Shown one piece after another: positions 17,878 to 30,146 of a stretch of 64,000 nucleotides of DNA. Position numbers and translations under genes: made by a program. Every line of letters begins with the position of its first letter. The stretch's first letter is position 1. The notes under the pieces are model-generated. The model worked only from the letters and a program-made list of their open reading frames with translations. It was not told the origin of the DNA and ran no database searches. This DNA is from Candidatus Gastranaerophilales bacterium (GTDB lineage Bacteria > Cyanobacteriota > Vampirovibrionia > Gastranaerophilales > Gastranaerophilaceae): contig CALUQN010000003.1 in NCBI GenBank assembly GCA_944322945.1, forward strand, positions 62,001-126,000. The letters are read 5' to 3'.

Positions 17878-18453
17878 ATGCCGTTATCAAAACAACAAAA
17901 TGTTCTTGGTATTTCTAATGCAAAAATTGCAGAAGTTACAGCAAACACAACTGAAACTTATACAATAGGCACAAGAATGGATTTACCGGAACTTAGTTCA
18001 ATGGAAGTTACAGTTAGCAGTGAAACAAAAGAAGCTGTTGCTGGGCTTACAACAGTAGATTCAATGACTTTCAAAAAGGCTTATGATGTAAAATTTGAAT
18101 CAGTCAATATTCCTTTGGATGTTATTGCAAAAATTAATGGTGCAACACTTACTGAAAGCGGAACAACACCAAACCAAATTGTTACTGTAACAGATAAGGC
18201 TTCAGATGTGCCTGTTTTGTTCAATCTTGAATTTGACACCGATTTCATTAATGGTGAAGCAGCAGACCTTCACATGGAATTATTCTGTGTTAAAGGTTTT
18301 CTTGATGTTGTTTCAAAAGCTGATGATTATTGGACTTGTTCTTTTGAAGGTCAAGGGGTTGTGAGAAAGAAAGATAAGGCTTTCAGAACAATAACTATTA
18401 ATGAAACTAGAACAGCAATCGGGGCAAATGACAGCCCTTCTGATGATTTATAA
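17878..18453 (+). CDS. Major tail (tube) protein
   Basis: 191 residues from the ATG at 17878 with AAAGGAG upstream. Beta-rich with acidic loops (LPELSSMEVTVSSETKEAVAG near residue 40) and VPVLFNLEFDTDFINGE in the middle. Position between terminator ring and chaperone genes marks it as the tube subunit. A strong terminator follows. Confidence 0.78.
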   Translation: MPLSKQQNVLGISNAKIAEVTANTTETYTIGTRMDLPELSSMEVTVSSETKEAVAGLTTVDSMTFKKAYDVKFESVNIPLDVIAKINGATLTESGTTPNQIVTVTDKASDVPVLFNLEFDTDFINGEAADLHMELFCVKGFLDVVSKADDYWTCSFEGQGVVRKKDKAFRTITINETRTAIGANDSPSDDL

Positions 18454-18536: not shown

Positions 18537-18965
18537 ATGACACTTGACAAAATAGTTGTGCCAAAGTTAGAAATGGAACTTTTTGGCGAAAAATGGAATT
18601 GTGAATTTAAACTGCGTAATTTTGCAGTATTAAGAAATACTTTCAACATTTCAGAACATCAACTGCTTACAGGTTTAATGGACAAAAAACTTGAATTTAT
18701 TGCTTATGGCATTTGGGCTTCAACAATAGTTTTTGCCCCCTTTGATGCAGCTGATCCATTAAAAGTTGAAAGAACAATGGATTTAGAAAAAATTCTTGAA
18801 TTATCACTGGCGGAATTACAAGCTGCAACAGATCAGGTTGTAAAAGCGATGGAAGCATACCTGCCAAAACCAAAGCCACAAGATATTGCAAAGGCTGAAG
18901 CCAAAAAAAAGCCGGTAGAAGCAGCAACAAAGAAGGCTGCAAAAAAGAAAAAATCTATGAAATAG
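18537..18965 (+). CDS. Tail assembly chaperone, unshifted form (G-type)
   Basis: 142 residues from the ATG at 18537 with CAGGAG upstream. The first 100 residues form a mixed domain (KLEMELFGEKWNCEFKLRNFAV). The tail is Ala/Lys-rich and ends in a Lys run encoded by the slippery stretch. It lies between tube and tape measure genes, the fixed place of the chaperone pair in long-tailed phages. It coats the tape measure and helps load tube subunits (family knowledge). A -1 frameshift gives the longer form described in the next entries. Confidence 0.85.
   Translation: MTLDKIVVPKLEMELFGEKWNCEFKLRNFAVLRNTFNISEHQLLTGLMDKKLEFIAYGIWASTIVFAPFDAADPLKVERTMDLEKILELSLAELQAATDQVVKAMEAYLPKPKPQDIAKAEAKKKPVEAATKKAAKKKKSMK
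18941..18947 (+). promoter_or_regulatory. Programmed -1 ribosomal frameshift site A AAA AAG
   Basis: Reading in the chaperone frame, the codons are GCA AAA AAG AAA AAA, so the heptamer A AAA AAG lies in exactly the phase needed for a -1 slip. It is the same heptamer as in E. coli dnaX. The -1 frame is then open for 71 codons, while the zero frame ends 18 bases later at TAG. Confidence 0.88.
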
Positions 18966-19162
18966 ATTATGCGTATTTATATTATGCCGTAACCACGCAT
19001 TTAAGATTGCCTGAAGTGGTTTTTTGGACTGCTACGCATAGAAAAATTGTTGAACTTCTTGACATAGACAAAGAAGTCAACAGCATAAACACGAATAACA
19101 AAACAAAGAAAAATTCAGGCAGTAAAAAAATGTCATTACAAGAAGCAATGAAAATTTTGTAA
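18947..19162 (+). CDS. Frameshift extension of the tail chaperone (T-type part of a G-T fusion)
   Basis: After a -1 slip at 18941-18947, translation continues in the -1 frame to TAA at 19160-19162, adding 71 residues (about 208 in total). The extension contains EIDYAYLYYAVTTHLRLPEV, then VFWTATHRKIVELL, the 'FW..T.+...LL' pattern seen in chaperone T parts of other phages, and a Lys/Asn-rich end. It has no start codon or ribosome site of its own at the 5' end. It stops 9 bases before the tape measure ATG. Confidence 0.85.
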   Translation, partial: EKIYEIDYAYLYYAVTTHLRLPEVVFWTATHRKIVELLDIDKEVNSINTNNKTKKNSGSKKMSLQEAMKIL

Positions 19163-19171
19163 GGAGAAGCC

Positions 19172-22100
19172 ATGAGTGTAACAGCAGGACAAGTTGCAGT
19201 AAAACTTAATTTGGACAAAACCCAATTTGAACAAGGTATGCAGCAAGCAAGAAAAAGTGTTGATTTGCTTTCAACCGCCTTCAGTTCTATTGCTGCATTG
19301 GGTGTTGGTGCAACTTTGTTAAATATCGGACAAAATGCACTAAAGGCTTCTTCAGACTTTGAACAAGCACAAGTTGCATTTGGTGTAATGCTGGGTGATG
19401 CAGAAAAAGCAAGCAGATTGGTCAATCAATTACAAGATATGGCAAATGTTACACCTTTTGAAACACAAGATCTGTTGGATGCTTCAAGGGTATTATTAAA
19501 CTTTGGGATTCAATTAGAAGATTTATTGCCCGATTTGCAAATGCTTGGTGATATTTCAGGCGGAAACAGAGAAAAAATGCGTTCAATGACATTGGCATTT
19601 GCACAAATGTCATCTGCTGGCAGATTGATGGGGCAAGATATGCTTCAAATGGTCAATGCCGGCTTCAACCCTTTGCAACAGATTTCTGAAGAAACTGGCA
19701 AATCAATGGCAGTTTTGAAAAAAGAAATGGAAGAAGGCAAAATTTCTGTTGATATGGTGCAACAGGCTTTCAAAAATGCAACCGCTGAAGGTGGCAGATT
19801 TCATGGAATGATGGAACAACAAAGCCAAACATTGGAAGGTGTAACTTCAACAATGTCTGATGCTTACACGCTGATGACACGTTCAATTTCAGATATGGCT
19901 TTGCCTGCAATTAAAGAACAAATTGTTGAAACTACAAAATTAATTGAAAAAATTACTGAAAATATCAATGCCTTTAAAGAATGGGCTTCTGTTAATCAAT
20001 CCACTGTTTATGGACTTAAAAACGCAAGTATTGCGATTGCAGCACTTGCTGTTGCAATTCCTTTGACCAGTAAAGCTGTAACAGGGCTTATTCTTGCATA
20101 TAGAAATTTGGGAGTTGTAACAGCTTCAACAACTGCTTACCAATTAGCATTTGCAAATTTATTAAAAGGCAATGCAGCACTGGCATTAATTCAATATAGA
20201 GCAGCCATCACTGCAACAATAGCACAGGTAAGAGCATTAACAGTTGCGATGCTGGCAAACCCTATTACATGGGTAACTGTAGTATTAGGGGCTGGGGCTG
20301 CTGCGTGGTGGAAATATCAACAATCTATTCACGAAACGGCAAATGCGATTGAAGAACTCAATGCAAAGCAAGATGAAAATGTCAACAAAACAACTGAAGC
20401 AATCAGAACGATTCAAGAACTTCAGGGGGCAAAAAATCTTGACTATGAGCAAACCAAAAGACTTGATCAGGCTATTGAATATTTAACAGAAAAATACCCT
20501 AATTATATCAATAAACTGAAAGAAGAATTGAGGTTAAAAGGGCAAATTTCAAAAGCTACTGCTGAACAAATTGCCAATGAAATGACACTTGCCAAAGTGA
20601 AAGATTTATCTGAAAGAAAAGCCAAAATTGACAAAAAAGTTGAAAGAGGTATTGCCGCATATAATCAACAACAACTTATGGCGGCAGCACGATTTGGCAC
20701 ACCTATTCAGGAAAATCCGGGCAGGCTTGGTGTAAGCAAATCTTTACAGCGTGATCAGGATGCAATTAATAAGGAACTTGAAAAAGTAAAAAAAGAACGT
20801 GAAGCCATAGTTAATGAATTGACTTCACTGCAAGCTGAAGAACCAGTTGCAAGAAGGTCAACCAGCACTGCAACAGGTGAAACCAAAACTGCAAAACAAC
20901 TTGCAGCAGAAGAAAAGGCAAGACAAAAAGAAGCACTTGACTATAAAATTGCAATGCTTGAAGTTGAAAAATATGAAACACAAAAAACAGAAGATGAAAT
21001 TTATCAAATTAATTTACAACAGGCAAATGCAAGAATAAATGCTGCAAAAGCAGGCACTTCTGAATATGCACAGGCATTGGCACAGAAATTGCAACTTGAA
21101 AGAGAATATGAGCAAAAACAAAAAGCCTTAAAATCTCAACAGGTTGTTGATGACCTTACCAATGCTAAACAGGGCATTGATAACCAAATGGCAATGCTTG
21201 AATTGGAATATGACAGAAGAAGAATTTCAAAAGCACAACTTTTGCAACTTGAAATTAATTTCATAAATCAAAAGAAAAAACTTGAAGAAGCTGCTTTGCA
21301 AGAACAATTAAAACTTGTTCAAGGCAATGCTGCTGAAGAAGTAAAAATTAAACGTGCAAGCCAGCAAGTAATGGAAAATTACAATTTGCAGGCAAATAGA
21401 AAAGCACTTGAATTATGGAATTATCAACATCAAGAAATAAAAGGTTTTGCTGATGACTTTGCTTCTGAATGGGGCAACACACTTTCAGGGCTTATAAGCG
21501 GAGAAATGACTTTTGCCGATGCCGCCAATTCCTTGTTCAATAACATTTTGGGTTCATTTGGCGATATGTGCGGCGAAATGGTAACACGTTGGATTAAAGA
21601 CAATATGTCATTAATTACAACAACAAGAGCATTCACCACTGTAAAACTTTGGTGTGATAGATTGTTGCATTTAAGCAATACAAAAACTATTGCAAGTAAT
21701 ACACTTGTGGCACAATCAGCAGCAACTTCTGCTGGTGTTACATCTGCATCAGCAACAGCCACAGCAGGTGCAATGACTGGTTTGGGTTCTGCTGTTACAT
21801 TTGTTGTTAATCCAATAATGAAATTGGCAGGGGCAATGGCTACATTAGCAGCTTCAAGCGGTGCTGTTGCACTTTCAATGCCTATTATAGCATTATCTAC
21901 AGCAGTAACTGCGGCTTCTGCTGCATTGGCGGCATTAAGCATGGGTATTTTAAATACTGCATTGATGATGACTTCACCACTTGCAATGATGTTTGCCCCT
22001 GTATCGGTAATGTTAGCGGCAGAAATGGCGGTTGTAGGTGCAGCAGCCACGACAGCGGCAGTGGCAGTTGGAAAACTTGCCGTTGCATTGGCGGCAGCTT

Positions 22101-22492
22101 CAGCAGCAGCTATTCCTTTTGTTGGTTGGATGCTTGCCCCTGCGGCTGCAATGGCAACAGGTGCAGGAATTGCGGCAGGGCAAATGCTTGCAGCTTCGGC
22201 TGTTCAATTCAGAGAAAAGGGCGGTGAAGTTAAAAAGGGGCAAGCCTACATTGTAGGTGAAAAAAGACCTGAATTATTTATTCCTGACAGAAACGGAAGA
22301 ATTGAACCAAACTTAAATTCTCTGAATGGAAACGGTGAAAGCACAACACAAAACAGCTATTCAACAACAGTTGTTATTCAAGCCATTGACACAAAAGACT
22401 TCAAACAGCGTGTTGGTGATTTAACTGAATTCATACATGGCAACATTCAAAAAGGTGTTAAGAAAAGACAGCTTGCACCGTTAGGGGGCTAA
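19172..22492 (+). CDS. Tail tape measure protein
   Basis: 1,106 residues, which predicts a tail of roughly 150-170 nm at the usual 0.15 nm per residue. Residues 30-230 match the tape-measure N-terminal domain (FSSIAALGVGATLL, MLGDAEKASRLVNQLQDMANVTPFETQDLL, SAGRLMGQDMLQMVNAGFNPL). Two hydrophobic stretches follow (about 280-310 and 360-380), then coiled coil (390-750) and a second strongly hydrophobic Ala/Met-rich zone (850-1010). The end has GQAYIVGEKRPELFIPDRNG, the usual tape-measure closing motif. Preceded by AAGGAG. Confidence 0.95.
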   Translation: MSVTAGQVAVKLNLDKTQFEQGMQQARKSVDLLSTAFSSIAALGVGATLLNIGQNALKASSDFEQAQVAFGVMLGDAEKASRLVNQLQDMANVTPFETQDLLDASRVLLNFGIQLEDLLPDLQMLGDISGGNREKMRSMTLAFAQMSSAGRLMGQDMLQMVNAGFNPLQQISEETGKSMAVLKKEMEEGKISVDMVQQAFKNATAEGGRFHGMMEQQSQTLEGVTSTMSDAYTLMTRSISDMALPAIKEQIVETTKLIEKITENINAFKEWASVNQSTVYGLKNASIAIAALAVAIPLTSKAVTGLILAYRNLGVVTASTTAYQLAFANLLKGNAALALIQYRAAITATIAQVRALTVAMLANPITWVTVVLGAGAAAWWKYQQSIHETANAIEELNAKQDENVNKTTEAIRTIQELQGAKNLDYEQTKRLDQAIEYLTEKYPNYINKLKEELRLKGQISKATAEQIANEMTLAKVKDLSERKAKIDKKVERGIAAYNQQQLMAAARFGTPIQENPGRLGVSKSLQRDQDAINKELEKVKKEREAIVNELTSLQAEEPVARRSTSTATGETKTAKQLAAEEKARQKEALDYKIAMLEVEKYETQKTEDEIYQINLQQANARINAAKAGTSEYAQALAQKLQLEREYEQKQKALKSQQVVDDLTNAKQGIDNQMAMLELEYDRRRISKAQLLQLEINFINQKKKLEEAALQEQLKLVQGNAAEEVKIKRASQQVMENYNLQANRKALELWNYQHQEIKGFADDFASEWGNTLSGLISGEMTFADAANSLFNNILGSFGDMCGEMVTRWIKDNMSLITTTRAFTTVKLWCDRLLHLSNTKTIASNTLVAQSAATSAGVTSASATATAGAMTGLGSAVTFVVNPIMKLAGAMATLAASSGAVALSMPIIALSTAVTAASAALAALSMGILNTALMMTSPLAMMFAPVSVMLAAEMAVVGAAATTAAVAVGKLAVALAAASAAAIPFVGWMLAPAAAMATGAGIAAGQMLAASAVQFREKGGEVKKGQAYIVGEKRPELFIPDRNGRIEPNLNSLNGNGESTTQNSYSTTVVIQAIDTKDFKQRVGDLTEFIHGNIQKGVKKRQLAPLGG

Positions 22493-27430: not shown

Positions 27431-28798
27431 ATGCAAAAAAGTATAAGCATTGCAGATGGCACTGGTGCTGAACTTCTTGAACAGCTAAACGGTGCATTTG
27501 AAACACTTGCAACTAATTTCACAGGTGGCACAGAACCACAGTTGACTTATGCCGGTATGGATTGGATGGATACCAGCGGCACAAATACAGTATGGAAAAG
27601 AAGAAGTGCAGACAATACAAGTTGGATTACAATGGGAACTTATGATGAAGATGGTTTTCACCCTTCAAACACTGTTTCTTCTGATGATTCTACTGTAACC
27701 AAAAAAGGCAATGTTTTTAATGGTGCAAATCAGCTTGTATTATTAAATTCTGAAGGTAAATTGCCCACACTGAATGGCAGTTTATTGACAAATTTGACAA
27801 TACCAACGAAAGCTGCAACAACACATTATTTGGAAGCAGGTTCTGACCATTCAAAAATATTAATAAAAGGCGGCACTTCTATTGAAGTAAGCACTTCTGA
27901 AGGCACAAAACTATTTCAAAATGTATCTGATACAGAATATAGTTTTACACAGCTTCTTGATGCTGGCACACCATTGCCGGGCAAAGATTATTCAATGTTT
28001 TTAGTTCTTGAAGATTCAGGAGATTTGGGGGTTAAGTTTTCATTAAACACAACAGCCCCTGAAGGTTATTCAATAAGCGATGTTTTAAGAATTGGCGGTT
28101 TCCACACAATGTGCTTGTCCATAACTTCAAGCAATGCCCCTTCTTCAACACATCCGGCAGTTGGATATAATTCAGGTGAAATAATTCCAAACAGTATTTG
28201 GGATAATTTACACCGTCCGAAATGTTCACCAAATGGAATGGCTTATTGTGATTTGCTTGATCTGTGGTGTGATATATACCCTCAAAGTGGTAAAGATGGG
28301 GCTGATACATCGGTCTATGGTGGCACAGCAGTTCATTCACGAGTTTGGGAAGATCATGCAAATGATATGCGGCTTGTTGGTAAAAGATTAATTTGGGATC
28401 ATGAATATTCAGTTCTTGCAGATGGTTCACCTGAAAAAGTTGCTGTAAAAGGGGCGGCACAACCAAACCCGGACACAACAGGCGGACACATGGCAACAAA
28501 TAATAAATATATGATAAGCAAATATTTTTTGTGGGAGATGGCTGGTTTAAGATGGTGCTGGCTTAACAATGTTTCAGCTAATGGCGGCAGTAATTGGAGT
28601 AACGCACAAGGGCTTTCAGGTGCTAAAGGGCAACTTTATGGGGCTTCTTATGCCTTGCTTGCTGGTGGTGGTTGGGCTAATTCCTCGTATTGCGGCTCTC
28701 GTTCTCGTCATGGTAATGTTTCTCGTGGTACGGTCGGTGCGCCTGACGGCGGTCGGGGCGTGTGTGAGCCGTTGAATGCTCGTGTAATCGTTGCTTGA
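27431..28798 (+). CDS. DGR target: tail fibre/receptor-binding protein with variable C-type-lectin-like end
   Basis: 455 residues from the ATG at 27431 with AAAGGAG upstream. Residues 1-60 are an attachment region with a DGTGAELLEQLNGAF start. The C-terminal 200 residues look like the C-type-lectin/FGE-like fold of DGR targets (GKRLIWDHEYSVLADG, FLWEMAGLRWCWLNN, LAGGGWANSSYCGSRSR, RGVC). The variable repeat covers codons of residues 408-446. Compared with the template, eight residues differ: seven template Asn codons now read Gly414, Ala416, His427, Val430, Gly436, Pro438, Asp439, and Ser441 now reads Gly. The framework Cys, Trp and Arg codons have no A at coding positions and are unchanged. 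Confidence 0.93.
   Translation: MQKSISIADGTGAELLEQLNGAFETLATNFTGGTEPQLTYAGMDWMDTSGTNTVWKRRSADNTSWITMGTYDEDGFHPSNTVSSDDSTVTKKGNVFNGANQLVLLNSEGKLPTLNGSLLTNLTIPTKAATTHYLEAGSDHSKILIKGGTSIEVSTSEGTKLFQNVSDTEYSFTQLLDAGTPLPGKDYSMFLVLEDSGDLGVKFSLNTTAPEGYSISDVLRIGGFHTMCLSITSSNAPSSTHPAVGYNSGEIIPNSIWDNLHRPKCSPNGMAYCDLLDLWCDIYPQSGKDGADTSVYGGTAVHSRVWEDHANDMRLVGKRLIWDHEYSVLADGSPEKVAVKGAAQPNPDTTGGHMATNNKYMISKYFLWEMAGLRWCWLNNVSANGGSNWSNAQGLSGAKGQLYGASYALLAGGGWANSSYCGSRSRHGNVSRGTVGAPDGGRGVCEPLNARVIVA
28651..28767 (+). repeat. DGR variable repeat (VR)
   Basis: 117 bases at the 3' end of the tail protein gene, matching the template at 28835-28951 without gaps. There are 14 differences and all fall where the template has A; 14 of the 23 template adenines are changed (8 to G, 5 to C, 1 to T) and none of the 94 other positions is. 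The GC-rich end CGGGGCGTGTGTGA is identical in both, as expected for the initiation-of-mutagenic-homology end. Confidence 0.95.
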
Positions 28799-28834
28799 TA
28801 AATCGGTCGCAAAATTTTTGGGTGGCTGGTCTAT

Positions 28835-28951
28835 TGCCTTGCTTGCTGGTGGTAATTGGAATAATTCATCGTATTGCGGCTCTCGTTCTCGTAATGGTAA
28901 TAATTCTCGTGGTACGGTCAATGCGAATAACGGCAGTCGGGGCGTGTGTGA
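28835..28951 (+). repeat. DGR template repeat (TR)
   Basis: Begins 36 bases after the stop of the target gene, same strand, offset 184 bases from VR. It is rich in AAT/AAC triplets in the target frame, which by A-to-N changes can give 15 or more amino acids and never a stop. It lies in a non-coding region; the open frame across it is a by-product of similarity to VR. It is transcribed as RNA and copied with errors at A by the reverse transcriptase encoded downstream (DGR mechanism, established). Confidence 0.95.
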
Positions 28952-29108: not shown

Positions 29109-30146
29109 ATGGTTAAGAAGTATAAGAATTTATGGCAGCAAATTGTTGATGATAACAATATTGCGTGGGCTTATCAAAAAGCCAAAAAGGGTAAAAGCAA
29201 ATATAATGCAGTGCGTTATATAGAAGATCACAAAGAAGAATGTTTGAAAGAGGTGAAAAGACTTCTTGTTGAACAAAAATTCACAACAGGTGCTTACAAA
29301 GAAAAAACGATAAAAGAACCCAAAGAACGGTTGATTTATGTATTGCCTTTTTATCCTGACAGAATAGTACAACATGCAATAATTAATGTTTTAGAACCCA
29401 TTTTTGTGAAGATGTTTATTAAAGACACCTATGCTTGCATCGAAAACAGGGGCATTCATAAGGGTTCTTTACGAATAATGGAATTTGTCCGAAAAAACAA
29501 ATATTGCTTAAAAATGGACATACGGAAGTTTTACCCTTCAATAAATCACAATATATTAATGCGAATTATTGAAAGAAAAATTGGTGATAAGCAACTTTTA
29601 AGAGTTTTAGAAGATATAGTGCGGTCAATACCGGGTGAAAAGAATGTGCCTATTGGTAACTTAACATCACAATGGTTTGGCAATTTGTATATGAATGAAC
29701 TGGATAAATTCATAAAGCACGAATTAAAAGTGAAATGTTATTTACGTTATTGTGATGATTTTGCACTATTTTCAAACGATAAAAAGCAGCTTAATGAAGC
29801 AAAACACCAAATAATAAAATTTCTTGATGAAGAATTAAAACTGACATTAAGCAAATGTGATTTATTTCAGACATCACAGGGTGTTGATTTCTTAGGGTAC
29901 AGACATTTTAAACATTACATTCTTATAAGAAAAAGCACTGTTAAAAGAGTTAAAAAACGACTTGTAAAAGTGAAAAAGGCTTATTTGGCAGGAAAGATGC
30001 CGCATGATAGATTCAGGTCTGTCATTGCATCAACTATTGGTTGGTTTAAGTGGGCAAATTCTCATAATTTAAGCCTTAGTTTGCAACTTGAAGAATTAAA
30101 GGAGATGGCAAAAGATGACAAACGCAACAACAAACAAGCCGCATAG
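29109..30146 (+). CDS. DGR reverse transcriptase
   Basis: 345 residues from the ATG at 29109. RT motifs in order: RLIYVLPFYPDRIVQHAI (75-91), motif A CLKMDIRKFYPS with Asp137, motif B IGNLTSQWF (182-190), the I/L-GxxxSQ form that marks DGR enzymes rather than group II introns (QG) or retrons, motif C YCDD at 214-217, and GVDFLGY at 258-264. There is no maturase, endonuclease or protease domain. It copies the template RNA with random bases opposite A, and the cDNA replaces the variable repeat. The ribosome site is weak. It overlaps the next gene by 32 bases. Confidence 0.95.
   Translation: MVKKYKNLWQQIVDDNNIAWAYQKAKKGKSKYNAVRYIEDHKEECLKEVKRLLVEQKFTTGAYKEKTIKEPKERLIYVLPFYPDRIVQHAIINVLEPIFVKMFIKDTYACIENRGIHKGSLRIMEFVRKNKYCLKMDIRKFYPSINHNILMRIIERKIGDKQLLRVLEDIVRSIPGEKNVPIGNLTSQWFGNLYMNELDKFIKHELKVKCYLRYCDDFALFSNDKKQLNEAKHQIIKFLDEELKLTLSKCDLFQTSQGVDFLGYRHFKHYILIRKSTVKRVKKRLVKVKKAYLAGKMPHDRFRSVIASTIGWFKWANSHNLSLSLQLEELKEMAKDDKRNNKQAA

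Follow-up and report, generated by a model that had tools for sequence, protein, structure and literature searches.

The prophage locus studied here raises the question of how an open reading frame lying just ahead of a tape measure gene is continued in a second frame, and at which bases the change of frame takes place. The window, that is, the whole stretch of 64,000 nucleotides analysed, comes from a genome of 2.1 Mb in 35 contigs assigned to a Candidatus Gastranaerophilales bacterium. At about 8.7-28.8 kb it carries a tailed prophage module with terminase, SPP1-type portal, major capsid protein, tail terminator, major tail protein and tape measure genes, of which the following frame the locus:

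17878-18453, + strand: major tail protein gene, upstream of the chaperone gene (phrog_4971, E 8.3e-14)
18537-18965, + strand: 0-frame ORF of 142 aa, putative short (gpG-like) form of the tail assembly chaperone (ORF call, AlphaFold model match, gene order)
19172-22492, + strand: tape measure protein gene (PF20155, E 3.5e-26; phrog_9959, E 2.9e-58)

The 142-codon ORF thus sits between the tail terminator and major tail protein genes on one side and the tape measure gene on the other, the order typical of lambda G/GT loci. It is overlapped by a -1 frame open from 18899 to the TAA at 19160-19162, which contains no ATG, GTG or TTG before 19007 and therefore has the form of a G/GT-type overlap without a usable early start. 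No -1-frame ORF is reported there in a list with a minimum of 60 aa, in line with the prediction of the initial annotation that standard gene callers would miss the extension. The same annotation had described 71 open codons, a gap of 9 bases between the end of the extension and the tape measure start, and an FW-T-type chaperone domain; both figures are exact (71 codons from 18947 to the TAA, 9 bases before the ATG at 19172), and the domain was recovered as a conserved FW-motif domain within 18899-19162.

The window also contains a diversity-generating retroelement, in which a variable repeat lies at the end of an Mtd-like gene (27431-28798, PF21916), with a template repeat of 122 nt and then a reverse transcriptase gene (PF00078) further on; 15 of the 16 differences between the repeats fall at template adenines. 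Its parts are:

28646-28767: variable repeat
28830-28951: template repeat
29109-30146: reverse transcriptase

Several observations suggest that the -1 frame is coding. Beyond the 0-frame stop, third-position changes between the window and locus L012 amount to 21/45 in the -1 frame against 8 and 6 in the other frames, and across the four closest sequences the third positions of the -1 frame are likewise the most variable. The extension domain is covered by phrog_10988, which matches the window's row with E 1.8e-5 and all nine rows of our alignment A3; this family is annotated as of unknown function, and we propose that it represents the -1-frame C-domain of the tail chaperone. A profile of the extension found it in 36 of 383 genomes of the order and a broader profile in 39 of 383 genomes of the family, the window's own genome being included in both counts and the two draws overlapping.

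We analysed the arrangement at 90 loci (the window plus sets of 12, 24 and 53 others, near-copies included). Relative to the upstream ORF, the extension lies in the -1 frame in 75 loci, in the same frame in 8 and in the +1 frame in 5 (L057, L146, L152, L154 and L198), while 2 (L140 and L159) have no overlapping upstream ORF. In four of the +1 loci (L057, L146, L152, L154) the frame may equally be read as -2, and the overlaps of L152 and L154 both contain ACA CCC AG, where a +1 shift might occur; the fifth, L198, lacks one A in its run compared with the closely similar L062, through either mutation or an error of assembly. The eight one-frame loci (L048, L139, L141, L206, L207, L208, L209, L211) encode chaperones that need no shift, and all five loci fetched from genus code g19 (L206-L209 and L211) are of this type. 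All eight match the N profile and then the extension profile in that order, with E values of 9e-16 to 2e-9 and 8e-21 to 3e-10, respectively, where shuffled decoys gave 1.5 or worse (L048 is itself a member of the extension profile used). Because these relatives carry the two domains fused in one frame, we consider that both form one protein. The extension, the conserved 0-frame stop, the in-phase A-rich heptamer and the in-frame fused relatives agree, so a -1 frameshift that adds a chaperone C-domain immediately ahead of the tape measure gene appears well supported by these comparisons.

The position of the shift has to be revised. The overlap contains two in-phase A AAA AAG heptamers, ending 51 and 15 nt before the stop, and these are the only in-phase copies among the module's eight structural genes (three other structural genes have one A AAA AAA each). 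The elements concerned are:

18902-18909, + strand: run of 8 A containing most of the proposed slip site
18905-18911, + strand: proposed slip site A AAA AAG (0-frame codons AAA AAG at 18906-18911), conserved in phase in relatives
18911-19162, + strand: -1 extension from the upstream site, 83 codons plus TAA, with a gpT-like domain and FW motif (phrog_10988, third-position excess)
18921-18940, + strand: predicted hairpin GCAGC...GCTGC, arms 18921-18925 and 18936-18940 (fold, shuffle z, paired columns in L012-L014)
18941-18947, + strand: second A AAA AAG, in phase, private to the window's phage and adjoining the 3' arm of the hairpin

The initial annotation had placed the shift at the downstream heptamer and overlooked the upstream one, from which the -1 frame is open for 83 codons. 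The downstream heptamer does exist in the phase described (GCA AAA AAG), and the TAG at 18963-18965 lies 15 nt past it, the distance of 18 nt given earlier being counted from the first base of its last codon. Its loss in relatives had been named beforehand as the observation that would speak against it, and it is lost in 12 of 12 N-domain relatives (L012, L013, L014, L016, L019, L020, L021, L022 and L029-L032, of which L031 and L032 are near-copies; L018 was left out as the same locus as L014, and L010, L015, L017 and L023-L028 as repeats). The frameshift with its C-domain is well supported, and it is the placement that fails. In the three alignable relatives, L012, L013 and L014, the corresponding columns read GCC AAA AAG, i.e. 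C AAA AAG, and in none of the 12 relatives does another, separate A AAA AAG follow downstream. The upstream A AAA AAG, on the other hand, is in phase with an open -1 frame in 11 of the 12, and the twelfth (L030) has A AAA AAA, together with A AAA AAT, in its slip region. A MAFFT alignment of the slip region of nine loci misaligned the A-rich tail of the distant loci and was excluded from the counts. We conclude that the slip site probably lies 36 letters upstream of its earlier placement, at 18905-18911, and the junction to be sought by mass spectrometry is corrected accordingly from a 71-codon to an 83-codon extension.

In a wider set, the overlap contains at least one A AAA AAA/G in phase in 33 of 35 loci, where codon shuffles would give 2.9 if drawn over the whole ORF and 8.5 if confined to the Lys-rich tail (last 35 codons); A AAA AAC takes its place in the remaining two. 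Kinship among loci inflates such counts. For the window alone, the local-shuffle chance of an in-phase heptamer is 0.54, and the weight therefore rests on conservation only. The 0-frame stop is also conserved, all four closest sequences reading ATG AAA TAG there, which makes an assembly slip very unlikely; the same tail codons occur in L018, carried by a genome of the window genome's family (G158). As the related locus L014 belongs to a Candidatus Melainabacteria assembly, a host of that group is very likely.

The hairpin, separated from the upstream heptamer by a spacer of 9 nt, favours 18905-18911 over 18941-18947 as the candidate site. Downstream folding gives a codon-shuffle z of -3.67 for the upstream site against -0.08 for the other, and a dinucleotide-shuffle z of -2.21 for the hairpin. 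Its core pairs are kept (4/4) in the window and L012-L014, with one compensatory swap from U-A to A-U, and slid controls pair far less, in a comparison of only four sequences. Conservation exceeded the shuffle control only moderately (25/500 for cells paired), and the test is one among several features tried. No strong Shine-Dalgarno-like stimulator was found upstream of the slip site in the window (-3.2 kcal/mol); such an element is strong in L019 only (-12.3 kcal/mol). This last locus (minus strand, ORF 1504-1887) has GAGGAGG about 10 nt before A AAA AAG and a strong downstream hairpin, in the manner of the E. coli dnaX cassette.

Taken as a whole, we put at roughly three in four the probability that the locus encodes a tail chaperone of the lambda G/GT kind, in a long-tailed prophage of a Melainabacteria-type host, with a minority -1 slip at 18905-18911 helped by the hairpin at 18921-18940. 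Most ribosomes would translate 18537-18965 and stop at the TAG, giving the short form of 142 aa. A minority would slip back by one base on A AAA AAG, assisted by the hairpin, and then follow the -1 frame as far as the TAA at 19160-19162, so that a long form of 208 aa gains the C-domain with its FW motif. If the roles parallel those of lambda gpG/gpGT, the tape measure protein would be coated by the short form, and tail tube subunits would be recruited by the C-domain. What the sequences themselves display is the gene order, the coding character of both frames, a heptamer conserved together with its phase, a hairpin with one apparent compensatory change and one-frame fusions elsewhere; that the slip is ribosomal, how often it happens and what the two forms do are what we infer.

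Other readings of the same overlap were weighed against this one. Slipping at 18941-18947, alone or together with the upstream site, seems improbable: the phase is correct, the -1 frame is open and the stop follows at 15 nt, and slip sites near the stop are common in some relatives (L040, L041, L044, L051), but the loss of this heptamer from every N-domain relative and a downstream region with no structure beyond chance argue against it. Low-level slipping there may occur in the window's phage alone. That the extension is a separate gene with its own start is very improbable; L053 does have AGGAG and an ATG just before the domain, and the window has TTG 19007 and GTG 19016, yet these two codons fall inside the conserved domain, no early start is common to the relatives and one-frame fusions are known. 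We give still less credit to a homopolymer error in sequencing or assembly that would hide a gene in one frame. The run of 8 A and the single-A difference between L198 and L062 would be compatible with such an error, but across numerous genomes and viral contigs the same two domains recur in -1 overlap, at 75 of the 90 loci.

The remaining rival, a little less probable than a slip at 18941-18947, is that RNA polymerase slips on the A8 run at 18902-18909, leaving some mRNAs one A short. Two features of the window and its host lend themselves to this reading and count against a ribosomal slip. One is the host tRNA set: among 42 tRNA genes found, all typed with ARAGORN, tRNA-Lys is present with both UUU (L069) and CUU (L068) anticodons, and the CUU tRNA should lower, not abolish, slipping at AAG. 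A Lys CUU tRNA was confirmed in 23 of 36 genomes searched with the CUU gene, the other 13 not being shown to lack one. In Thermus, the presence of two Lys tRNAs has been connected with reliance on RNA polymerase slippage in place of ribosomal slipping, and a low slipping level, about 30 to 1, is described as sufficient in lambda (PMC5009743). The other feature is the run itself, since A8 is near the length reported for transcriptional slippage, An with n>7, in a second source, which also gives 6 and 7% frameshifting for two tail chaperone cassettes and a frameshift level rising with A-run length (PMC3711429). A stretch of 9 A or T is described as a highly efficient site of RNA polymerase slippage (PMC5009743), and the window's run of 8 falls short of the length of about 9 or more looked for here. 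Moreover, the window's three closest relatives have only A7, phase-locked and with the hairpin present, and relatives with A6, for which transcriptional slippage is unlikely, have the phase-locked heptamer nonetheless.

Counts among the relatives also speak for polymerase slippage. After removal of near-copies, the 75 -1 loci leave 65, in which the longest A-run of the overlap is 6 in 13 loci, 7 in 10, 8 in 2, 9 in 32, 10 in 3 and 5 or fewer in 5. Runs of A9-A10 therefore occur in 35 of 65 loci, mostly without a hairpin, where 1.2 (whole-ORF shuffle) to 3.5 (local shuffle) are expected. In 25 of 25 cases, the window's included, runs of A6-A8 have their last A at the second codon position, which is what A_AAA_AAN requires; those of A9-A10 do so in 21 of 35 (Fisher p 1.4e-4). 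In none of the 65 loci is the longest run one of 7 or 8 that offers A_AAA_AAA alone, although ribosomal use would permit it. Folding of the 45 nt downstream follows the same division, with a median dinucleotide-shuffle z of -1.85 for short runs (n=25) against 0.32 for long ones (n=35; one-sided p 6e-7 over the 60 loci with an in-phase A-run). For loci gathered after the idea had been formed, the difference gives p 1.1e-3 (n=14 and 14), in a set partly confounded with higher-GC A AAA AAC phages. The tree has seven changes of run class, five of them forced by starred branches. The five independent pairs give on average 2.6 for and 0.1 against a link between run length and hairpin (median p 0.5) and are too few, so that this link is unproven beyond shared ancestry. 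Some loci run counter to the division. Despite an A9 run, z lies at -2.1 to -2.8 in L060, L061 and L187, and the fold of L050 reaches -11.5 kcal/mol; conversely, L145 and L210, both with A6, show no hairpin beyond what chance would give.

These data suggest two classes of signal: in one, A6-A8 runs are phase-locked and usually accompanied by a hairpin; in the other, A9-A10 runs mostly lack one. The window, with its phase-locked A8 and hairpin, appears to fall in the ribosomal class. The A9-A10 class may use RNA polymerase slippage, a testable reading in view of the literature on polymerase slippage at A9 and on A-run length. Tentatively, and with the odds somewhat against it, we suggest that one chaperone family, in phages of gut Melainabacteria and of other hosts, uses two exchangeable routes, a ribosomal one at a phase-locked A6-A8 heptamer with a hairpin and a polymerase one on A9 (rarely A10) without, with run class changing at least five times on the tree and further lineages that fused the two parts in one frame and dropped the shift. 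Such a large natural set of one gene opens the trade-off between slip-run length and RNA structure to test, and the two run classes allow ribosomal and polymerase slippage to be distinguished by cDNA within one homologous gene.

The AlphaFold model of the short form (pLDDT 77.9) was compared with 391 solved chains, of which only two reach Z 2, both weakly: 3klu YqbN (Z 4.0, 84 aligned, rmsd 4.4) and 2ob9, the HK97 tail assembly chaperone (Z 3.6, 87 aligned, rmsd 5.5). In a viral structure library, chaperones are among the weak matches, the best being an uncharacterized protein (E 3.9e-5). At such low Z values the two matches may point to a chaperone fold for the modelled short form, short of proof. 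Their weakness counts against the assignment, as does the outcome for the window's protein, which matched no chaperone model in Pfam or PHROG and no record in the phage collection. Sequence profiles against solved structures returned nothing relevant (best E 0.28). The model of the extension (pLDDT 78.5) is mostly helical, and no convincing fold match was found for it. A literature search by title and start of abstract found no paper on this gene in Melainabacteria phages and none on transcriptional slippage as a tail-chaperone route.

Among known systems, the nearest is lambda, whose slip site is GGGAAAG; that of the window would be A AAA AAG, and the two have no sequence match. Counterparts of gpG/gpGT exist in HK97 and many other long-tailed phages, and the likeness to the HK97 protein is one of weak fold similarity only. 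According to PMC5009743, lambda has the same order of major tail protein, G with the GT overlap and tape measure, a shift near the end of G and a C-domain on only a fraction of the product. The E. coli dnaX gene likewise uses A AAA AAG with a downstream hairpin (PMC3711429, PMC5009743), but its shift ends the protein early whereas that of the window would lengthen it; in addition, the window lacks the strong upstream Shine-Dalgarno element, which L019 has, and its host, unlike E. coli, has a second Lys tRNA. In Thermus thermophilus, transcriptional slippage in dnaX is described at a run of 9 with two Lys tRNAs, as in the A9-class relatives, in contrast to the window with its A8, phase lock and hairpin. 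The window's gene is thus a new addition to the known lambda G/GT kind, most likely slipping at 18905-18911, and the novelty is in the comparative picture, not in the single case.
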